Shown here: positions 24,620 to 34,191 of the stretch, piece by piece | How positions within the stretch are numbered: the first letter of the stretch is position 1 | How the letters are laid out: each line of letters begins with the position of its first letter | Assembly: GCA_020048435.1 (NCBI GenBank) | Contig: JAIFMO010000062.1 | Coordinates: forward strand, 1 to 39,497 | Reading direction: 5' to 3' | Origin: Sulfuritalea sp. | GTDB lineage: Bacteria > Pseudomonadota > Gammaproteobacteria > Burkholderiales > Rhodocyclaceae | Length of the DNA stretch: 39,497 nucleotides | Made by a program: the position numbers and the translations under genes | The notes under the pieces: generated by a model | What the model was told of the DNA's origin: nothing | Database searches by the model: none | Seen by the model: only the letters and a program-made list of their open reading frames with translations

Positions 24620-25660
24620 ATGAATTCGACTCAGACTCTCATTCCTGCCACGCTGATTCCGGGCGACGGCATTGGCCCGGAAATAACTGAAGCCACGCTC
24701 GTGGCGCTCGATGCCATTGGTGCACCGTTTCAATGGGATAGGCAACTTGCCGGCATGGCAGGGGTTACCTCTTGCGGCGATCCTCTGCCCCCCGCCTGCC
24801 TTGACAGTATCCGCCAGACACGTTTGGCGCTGAAGGGGCCGCTGGAAACGCCCGTGGGTGGGGGCTATCGCTCATCGAACGTGCGCCTGCGTGAGGAATT
24901 CAAGCTCTACGCCAATTTGCGGCCAGCCTGTACCATGATCCCTGGCGGCCGCTACGAAAATATTGATCTGGTGTTAGTGCGCGAGAACAACGAAGGCCTC
25001 TACATGGGCTACGAACACTTCATTCCGATCGATGGCGATCCGCACGCAGTTGGCATGTCGACCGGCATCAATACCCGCCAGGGTTGTCGCCGCATCATCA
25101 ACTTTGCCTTTGACTACGCAATCCGCAAGGAACGCAAGAAGGTGACCGTGGTGCATAAGGCCAATATCATGAAGGCGCTGACCGGCATCTTTCTCGAGAC
25201 CGCGCGCCAAATTTACGACGAGAAATACAAGGGGCTCCTCGATTTCGAGGAAATTATCGTTGATGCCTGTGCGATGAAACTGGTGATGAACCCGTGGCAA
25301 TTCGATGTGCTCGTCACCACCAATCTATTTGGCGACATTCTTTCCGACGAAATTGCCGGCCTCATCGGTGGTCTCGGCATGGCGCCTGGCGCAAATATCG
25401 GGGAGCATGCCGCCATTTTCGAAGCGGTGCATGGCTCCGCACCGGACATTACCGGAAAAGGCATTGCCAACCCTATTGCACTGATGCTGGCGGCAGCCCT
25501 GATGCTCGATCACGTCGGTCGTGCCGATCTTGGCGACCGCCTGCGCCAAGCGATCGACGCCACGCTAAACATCGACAAGGTACGCACTGGCGATCTCGGC
25601 GGAACAGCCAGCACAAAACAGTTTACTGCCGCCTTGTTACAACGTATTCATGCCGCTTGA
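24620..25660 (+). CDS. Isocitrate dehydrogenase, NAD-dependent type
   Basis: ATLIPGDGIGPEITEATL...RSSNVRLREEFKLYANLRP...VRENNEGLYMGYEH...NLFGDILSDEIAGLIGGLGMAPGANIG...EAVHGSAPDITGKGIANP. Confidence 0.92.
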   Translation: MNSTQTLIPATLIPGDGIGPEITEATLVALDAIGAPFQWDRQLAGMAGVTSCGDPLPPACLDSIRQTRLALKGPLETPVGGGYRSSNVRLREEFKLYANLRPACTMIPGGRYENIDLVLVRENNEGLYMGYEHFIPIDGDPHAVGMSTGINTRQGCRRIINFAFDYAIRKERKKVTVVHKANIMKALTGIFLETARQIYDEKYKGLLDFEEIIVDACAMKLVMNPWQFDVLVTTNLFGDILSDEIAGLIGGLGMAPGANIGEHAAIFEAVHGSAPDITGKGIANPIALMLAAALMLDHVGRADLGDRLRQAIDATLNIDKVRTGDLGGTASTKQFTAALLQRIHAA

Positions 25661-25776
25661 TCCATTACAATGCAACCACTCGTGAAAACGCTGGATATTT
25701 CGAGGCAGATGTAGCACTGATTCAATGCAGTCGACATGGAATTTGGTGATGGGTCGGTCTGTATAATTTACAAAAT

Positions 25777-26086
25777 GGAAGGTTGGCAGAGCGGTTGAAT
25801 GCACCGGTCTTGTTAAATCGAGCGCTGATGTGGAAACGCATCAGATGTAAGGAGTCAAATTCGGCGAAGCCCCTGGGTTTCCGAGGTAATGCCGAGCGAA
25901 GCCTGGTCTAGGTCAGGAACGTGTAGAGACTTGACGGCTCCCACCTAAGGCTGAAAAGCTAGGGTGAAGACAAAGTCCAGACTTTCAAACAGGCAGCGTT
26001 ATGGCCTGGTGGCGAAAGCCATAGAGGTAAGGAAAACCGGCGATGTCGTAAGGCATCCGTGAGTTCGAATCTCACACCTTCCGCCA
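25777..26086 (+). tRNA. tRNA-Ser(UGA) interrupted by a group I intron; exons 25777..25811 and 26032..26086 (CCA encoded)
   Basis: Acceptor stem GGAAGGT/ACCTTCC; D-arm GGCAGAGCGGTTGAATGC; spliced anticodon arm CCGGT-CTTGAAA-ACCGG (anticodon UGA); long variable arm; T-arm GTGAG-TTCGAAT-CTCAC; G then CCA. Spliced length 90 nt, as expected for a class II tRNA-Ser. Confidence 0.95.
25812..26031 (+). ncRNA. Group I self-splicing intron (small, ORF-less, IC3-like)
   Basis: P2 hairpin 25825..25844 (CTGATGTG-GAAA-CGCATCAG), core blocks AGTCAAATTCGGCGAAGCC and GTGTAGAGACTTGACGGCTCCCACCTAAGG, AGGGTGAAGACAAAGTCCAGA, P9 with GAAA loop (TGGC-GAAA-GCCA at 26010..26021), terminal G. Strong resemblance to the Azoarcus tRNA-Ile intron as I remember it. 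Confidence 0.93.
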
Positions 26087-26092
26087 AAAATT

Positions 26093-26127
26093 AATCTAAC
26101 AAATTGATTTTGTTGGATTTATTTTTT
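26093..26127 (+). terminator. Terminator downstream of tRNA-Ser
   Basis: AATCTAACAAA-ttgat-TTTTGTTGGATT stem followed by tatttttt. Confidence 0.75.
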
Positions 26128-33789: not shown

Positions 33790-33857
33790 GGTTATCCCTC
33801 GGGTTATTGAACTCGGCTGGCGCAATGACTGAAAACTGACTGACTCGTAAAATGACG

Positions 33858-33876
33858 ACGGGAGCCGAAGCTCCCG
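33858..33876 (-). terminator. Hairpin at the end of the tmRNA coding piece
   Basis: GGGAGC-TTCG-GCTCCC on the minus strand followed by a weak T-tract (gtcgtcatttt). Confidence 0.65.
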
Positions 33877-33921
33877 CCGATAGCCATTCTGTTTATTGGA
33901 CGGCTACATCCTCAGCATGCC

Positions 33922-33954
33922 TTAAGCGGCAATTGCGAAACGCTCATCGTTGGC
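33922..33954 (-). other. tmRNA proteolysis tag ORF (ANDERFAIAA*)
   Basis: Direct translation on the minus strand; ends AIAA-stop like known tags. Confidence 0.95.
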
Positions 33955-34191
33955 GTTTGTGGTTTTGCGCGGATTACGTCCGTCGCCTCTCGAGCCGCCT
34001 GCTTACCTTCTACGCCCTGTCGAAACCAGTACACCCCCCCAGTGGTGGAGGTGGCGGGAATCGAACCCGCGTCCAGAACGCTTCCGGGTCGCCGGAATTA
34101 CGACCATGCCCGGATTATGAGGCTCCGCGGGCTCGAATTCAAGTTGCGTTGAGATATTTTGCTCGATCAGGGCTGTGCGCTGGTGCCGCGG

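Follow-up and report, generated by a model that had tools for sequence, protein, structure and literature searches.

The stretch of DNA analysed here, hereafter the window, corresponds to positions 1 to 39,497 of contig JAIFMO010000062.1 in a draft genome of Sulfuritalea sp. (assembly GCA_020048435.1), and comprises on its forward strand a tRNA-Ser(UGA) gene of 310 nt (25777-26086) in which an insert separates U34 from G35 of the anticodon loop. With introns allowed, ARAGORN describes it as a tRNA-Ser(tga) of 90 nt once spliced, with a 220-nt intron after CUU|G, where the cloverleaf, long variable arm, G73, CCA end and UGA anticodon are all present; the exact limits are 25777-25811 for the 5' exon, 25812-26031 for the intron and 26032-26086 for the 3' exon. 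With introns disallowed, the gene is missed and the window yields only a transfer-messenger RNA (tmRNA). The first base of the intron and the first base of the second exon both being G, two candidate junctions lead to one spliced product, but solely the junction U34|G35 sets a U opposite the guide G. An earlier note on this DNA, made from the letters alone, had proposed at this place an insert of about 220 nt between U34 and G35 of a tRNA-Ser(UGA) that ordinary tRNA callers would probably miss or mis-score; position, host and silence of the caller are borne out, and the U•G splice-site pair and the terminal G occur in every carrier of the intron. Judging from the comparisons below, the locus very probably encodes a functional tRNA-Ser(UGA) and harbours an autocatalytic intron of group IC3. 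Its features are as follows, helices being named P1 to P9 and open reading frame abbreviated to ORF:

25762-25767, forward strand: possible -10 box TATAAT, read by eye, 9 nt upstream of the tRNA (a consensus promoter scan gave no full sigma-70 pair)
25777-25811, forward strand: 5' exon, i.e., acceptor 5' strand, D arm, 5' anticodon stem, C32, U33 and U34 (ARAGORN with introns; strongly conserved in carriers)
25809-25822, forward strand: P1, exon CUU and G with CGAG, U•G at the 5' splice site, internal guide GAG (invariant in 43/43 aligned relatives; CUU/GAG also in 15/15 Leu introns)
25812-26031, forward strand: group I (IC3-type) intron, 220 nt, ORF-less, with a 3'-terminal G (RF00028 match, covariation and Ser(UGA) intron clade, see below)
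25825-25844, forward strand: P2, 8 bp, GAAA cap (compensatory changes at 6/8 pairs; GAAA invariant in 43)
25851-25856, forward strand: P3 5' strand GGAGUC, pairing with 25936-25941
25861-25895, forward strand: P4 (25861-25865 with 25891-25895) and, inside it, P5 (97.7% and 99.5% of cells paired)
25896-25922, forward strand: P6 and P6a (P6a with compensatory changes at 4/4 pairs)
25928-25932, forward strand: P7 5' strand GACUU, guanosine-binding helix, pairing with 25973-25977
25936-25941, forward strand: P3 3' strand GGCUCC
25942-25966, forward strand: P8 with a CCUAAG...-type element (4-bp base with 100% of cells paired; compensatory changes at 4 pairs of P8 plus extension)
25973-25977, forward strand: P7 3' strand AAGUC
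25981-26028, forward strand: P9.0, P9a and GAAA-capped P9 (compensatory changes at 6/9 P9a/P9 pairs)
26032-26086, forward strand: 3' exon, i.e., G35, A36, 3' anticodon stem, long variable arm, T arm, acceptor 3' strand, G73 and CCA (ARAGORN; conserved in carriers)
26093-26119, forward strand: possible terminator, read by eye as an AT-rich hairpin with 11-bp arms (26093-26103 and 26109-26119) and then a T run (not picked up by a G+C-rich terminator scan)

The insert contains no ORF and is a group I intron of the IC3 type, the small kind seen in tRNAs. Rfam family RF00028 matches it over the full model (1-253) with 49.0 bits, i.e., a significant E-value of 2e-11 for 651 bases and 2.2e-11 for the genome, and this match is the sole one in the 3.05-Mb draft. 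A chance match is excluded, since the same interrupted gene occurs in other genomes with 77-91% intron identity and its structure covaries. As the earlier note had it, P2 and P9 are GAAA-capped and no ORF is present; together with the small size and the anticodon-loop position, these are the features of group IC3 tRNA introns, and in tree reconstructions the Ser intron groups with Leu, Ile and Arg tRNA introns.

The group I fold was written for the window and then tested on an alignment of 43 distinct relatives (A1), where 98.3% of cells are paired as against 29-43% when the partners are slid by 1-3 columns; deriving the fold from one aligned sequence inflates the paired percentage relative to the slid versions, but not the compensatory changes. 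Changes on both sides were found at 25 of the 78 pairs, distributed over P2, P5, P6a, P8, P9.0, P9a, P9 and the T stem, and none of 500 shuffles reached any of the pairing or covariation measures. The 5' splice-site pair, namely U35 of the precursor with G44, is paired in 43/43, while exon CUU, guide GAG and terminal intron G are kept in all 53 distinct tRNA-Ser(UGA) introns collected. Within Ser introns P3 and P7 are nearly invariant; across Ser, Leu, Ile, Thr and Arg hosts, they covary, with about a dozen distinct fully paired 6-bp versions of P3 and four main versions of P7 (GACUU/AAGUC, GACUA/UAGUC, GAGCA/UGCUC and GAUCA/UGAUC), as read by a simple pattern that mis-parsed two P3 and left nine sequences unparsed. 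The distant Ser intron L324 exhibits compensatory change in both helices (P3 GGAAUC/GGUUCC, P7 GAUCA/UGAUC). The conserved P3-P4-P6-P7-P8 core with its P3/P7 pseudoknot, by which group I introns are recognised, is thus present, and the group I assignment made in the earlier note stands on the RF00028 match, the covariation, the U•G splice-site pair and the terminal G.

Respective to distribution, RF00028 matches occur in 25 of the 201 genomes of the window's family, where the hosts are tRNA-Ile(CAU), Leu(UAA), Thr(UGU) and Ser(UGA); in most relatives with a recognisable tRNA-Ser(UGA), this gene is intronless. Ser introns were found in genomes G000, G011, G125 (UBA1934), G096, G361, G403 and G297, further in Achromobacter aloeverae, Pusillimonas sp. 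MFBS29 and a metagenome-assembled genome (MAG) of Methyloversatilis, and a single carrier, G897 (L324), lies outside the order Burkholderiales. The complete interrupted gene is also found in 54 metagenome contigs, the window's own JFJP01001769.1 (L283) included. The contig pattern scan is no census, 116 of the 120 matches listed being chance ones outside tRNAs. Plasmid and phage collections gave no Ser(UGA) intron, only core-like matches (plasmids of Bradyrhizobium and Tritonibacter) and tRNA exons. Some ARAGORN calls, i.e., Ser(aga), Arg(acg), Pro(cgg), a Ser(tga) of 256 nt and some shifted Leu(taa), were discarded as misplaced junctions in tRNA-Ile(CAU)-like backbones. In three trees of 68-73 tRNA introns, the Ser introns form one clade with supports of 98/100, 100/100 and 98/88, the last including L324, and the sequences compared place them as one lineage. 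A point against this is that the searches were mostly seeded with the window sequence, so that divergent independent Ser introns could be hidden. The sister group differs by tree, being either a Leu(UAA) subclade (86/86) or the Azoarcus-type Ile introns, and the Arg(CCU) introns L206 and L327 fall outside the Ser clade.

Within the window's genus, an isocitrate-dehydrogenase-like gene (window 24620-25660) lies directly upstream of tRNA-Ser(UGA). At this same locus, G001 carries an intronless tRNA-Ser(UGA), and G003 carries a 5' remnant and then a replacement intronless copy. In G003 (L049) as in G034 (L050), the 5' tRNA-Ser(UGA) remnants stand about 150 nt upstream of an intact intronless tRNA-Ser(UGA), and they make the gene appear to be a site of repeated integration; gapped 146-nt matches once taken for shorter introns in these two genomes are nothing else than such remnants. 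The window exons differ from the G001 tRNA in acceptor stem (GGAGGCG in G001) and variable arm but match those of the other intron carriers, the acceptor GGAAGGT being found in 52/53 intron-bearing against 2/16 intronless genes. This comparison, with its small intronless sample, favours a replacement of the whole gene at the window locus. As most carriers have this distinctive acceptor stem in common, the intron has probably spread mainly with whole tRNA-Ser genes and not by repeated independent insertion, a conclusion less certain than that of the single lineage.

Alternatively, the intron could have been inserted locally, by reverse splicing at the CUU site of a tRNA-Ser gene already in place. 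Position 34/35 and the CUU/GAG pairing are common to Ser, Leu and Thr introns, tRNA-Leu(UAA) and tRNA-Thr(UGU) likewise offer the CUU site, and one of the trees joins the Ser introns with the Leu(UAA) subclade. Since the tRNA-Leu(UAA) introns share both site and guide pairing, the guide would match in the same way with any tRNA having C32-U33-U34; such an insertion can account for how the Ser lineage was founded in the first place, and the CUU/GAG match may be how this lineage first reached tRNA-Ser. For the window copy itself local insertion seems unlikely, considering that its exons depart from those of the same-locus tRNA of G001 and agree with those of other carriers, and that the Ser introns form one clade; with another tree placing them beside the Azoarcus-type Ile introns, the founder is ambiguous as well.

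A probable vehicle of whole tRNA genes is found in Methyloversatilis-type genomes, namely G096, G125, the Methyloversatilis MAG and metagenome contig L255, where an integrative element interrupts the T-loop of an intronless tRNA-Ser(UGA):

L217/L218 (G096:C18, about 31680-51950), L219:4609-7138 (G125), L255, and L171 with L310: trio-recombinase element splitting the native tRNA-Ser(UGA)

The split sites read ...CGTGAGTTC|TTATCT... on one side and ...GATAA|GAGTTCGAATCTCAC... on the other. In G096, G125 and L255, the halves joined at the 6-bp core GAGTTC, which is present at both element ends, give a perfect intronless tRNA-Ser(UGA), and the two halves enclose, some 80 nt from one end, an intron-bearing tRNA-Ser with a different T stem (CCAGG). 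In Methyloversatilis-type genomes, the element thus split the native intronless gene, both halves of which survive, and brought an intron-bearing substitute. The element of G096 is about 20 kb long, its first gene encoding a 477-aa tyrosine recombinase (PF00589) and the next ones an 1179-aa protein whose C-terminal motifs are recombinase-like and a protein of 217 aa, neither of which matches PF00589; G125 and L255 retain a 2.5-kb remnant. It resembles the Tn554, SE and GInt trio elements, for which the gene order and 6-bp footprint of Tn554-like elements have been described (PMC10214605), in its gene order and in the 6-bp core at its ends, but differs from them in being inserted in a tRNA T-loop and in carrying a full intron-bearing tRNA; the NCBIfam trio models (GmtY, GmtZ) score far below their cutoffs on it. 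Two genomes with related integrases, G201 and G418, were rejected as further cases, no intron-bearing tRNA lying beside those integrases. G215 has a distantly related trio upstream of a tRNA-Thr(UGU) that bears an intron, the first recombinase gene being about 7 kb away, and a 24-nt tRNA-Thr-like 3' end then follows (L356:2869-11800; G215:C218:327500-342500); the other end of the element was not found within the 27 kb searched, and G215 may represent a second instance of a substitute tRNA with an intron. The intron-bearing tRNA-Ser being inside the Methyloversatilis-type element, the intron probably travels with whole tRNA genes. The window holds no such element, and the window genome lacks the Methyloversatilis integrase, which only a few genomes of the order possess, for which reason no claim is made that the window copy came with it. 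That ORF-less introns would in general, tRNA-Thr(UGU) and the window copy included, be passengers of T-loop-splitting integrative elements with a substitute tRNA is put forward as a tentative and rather doubtful proposal. More broadly, the conservation of the exons, together with the Methyloversatilis element, suggests that whole tRNA genes are carried by a mobile element, which bears on the old question of how introns move without a homing endonuclease.

As regards function, UCA codons need a tRNA with U34 under standard decoding rules. A search of the window genome with the spliced tRNA matched only its own two exons, and its genome-wide ARAGORN list gives Ser(cga) and Ser(gct) with no other Ser(tga), though this draft also lacks several common tRNAs and a missing second copy is weak evidence there. 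Only intron-bearing exons match the spliced tRNA-Ser(UGA) in G297, a single contig rated 100% complete, as well as in A. aloeverae AVA-1 and Pusillimonas sp. MFBS29, and the additional match in Methyloversatilis universalis FAM5 (G096) is a broken gene. Hence the second intact copy that the earlier note had suggested looking for was found neither in the window draft nor in the four other carriers, and, with UCA codons needing U34, removal of the intron would be required for the cell to live. Once transcribed, the intron would fold into the P3-P9 core with the guanosine site in P7, and exon C32-U33-U34 would pair with the guide GAG as P1, setting U34•G at the 5' splice site. GTP would attack this site, whereupon the freed U34 would attack after the terminal intron G, so as to join U34 to G35 and restore the UGA anticodon; the spliced tRNA would then be matured and serylated.

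Some observations weigh against a functional intron. The RF00028 score is 1 bit below the gathering score of 50 bits, which leaves a default Rfam scan silent on the intron; this cutoff is a curated threshold, not a biological feature, and 20 of the 25 matching genomes of the family likewise score below 50, the matches inspected being plain tRNA introns. The assembly is 91.6% complete, in 247 contigs, and could be missing a second copy. Finally, the pseudoknot-free minimum-energy fold does not contain the catalytic fold, as is usual for group I introns with folds of that kind. Along with the slightly low score and the draft state of the genome, the P8 of the window (CCUAAG...UAGGG, against UAUGG in many relatives) could suggest a decayed relic that splices poorly or no longer, UCA codons being read by another tRNA. 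This seems very unlikely, as the splice-site determinants, P3, P7 and the cloverleaf are all intact, no other Ser(UGA) copy was found where it was looked for, decoding rules demand U34 for UCA, and near-identical copies exist in other metagenome contigs (e.g., L289 and L260). A protein-spliced intron of archaeal type or an unrelated insertion, to which the anticodon-loop position alone would point, is hardly conceivable in view of the full-length group I model match, the P3-P9 covariation and the 220-nt length, and of a site at 34/35 and not at the position 37/38 of enzymatically spliced tRNA introns (PMC4033280).

The self-splicing group I intron proposed here finds its closest counterpart in the Azoarcus pre-tRNA-Ile(CAU) group IC3 intron, for which crystal structures were reported (PMC3984707), and which resembles it in size (about 205-220 nt), lack of ORF, anticodon-loop position, core, GAAA-capped P2 and P9 and beta-proteobacterial host, but differs in host tRNA, guide sequence and insertion after the anticodon rather than inside it. 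Ile(CAU) introns from the window's family can be aligned from end to end with the Ser intron, whose P5 differs in lacking their CCUAAG...UAUGG element (L2/P8 and L9/P5 contacts being compared at the sequence level). The proteobacterial Leu introns found here have in common with it the insertion between U34 and nucleotide 35 and the CUU/GAG guide pairing, a comparison referring to Paquin et al. 1997 as cited in PMC8450103, and one Leu subclade has the same P7 (GACUU/AAGUC); they differ in host tRNA and exon sequence, the Ser introns being a separate clade. The tRNA-Arg(CCU) and tRNA-fMet group I introns are small anticodon-loop ribozymes too, with other hosts and sites.

The literature consulted (PMC3984707, PMC8450103, PMC4033280, PMC5733544) names Leu, Ile, Arg and fMet as intron-bearing tRNAs and, doubtfully, 22-49 nt "introns" in Arg, Gly and Lys. 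A bacterial tRNA-Ser group I intron was met nowhere in the open-access literature searched, and tRNA-Ser(UGA) as a host is, as far as searched, unreported; priority is not claimed, as subscription papers and intron databases lay outside the search scope. The unfamiliarity of this host, remarked upon in the earlier note, is in line with the open-access papers searched; with 53 distinct introns found, the host is no one-off. As such, tRNA-Ser(UGA) joins the short list of bacterial group I intron hosts with a distinct lineage present in many genomes, and with the gene missed by annotation tools, carriers would seem devoid of an essential tRNA. The intron RNA itself is of a known type, the carrier element being the more unusual part.

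Besides, tRNA-Thr(UGU) group I introns were observed at L025:1472-1762, L046:1503-1785 and L212, this host being likewise not met in the open-access literature searched. Genomes of the window's class also contain tRNA-Arg(CCU) introns (L206, L327 and L328) and tRNA-Leu(UAA) introns that, at about 690 nt, could accommodate an ORF (L339, L342, L344 and L348). Within the window, the tmRNA lies on the reverse strand at 33853-34156 and is of the permuted two-piece, betaproteobacterial type (RF01850, 238 bits).
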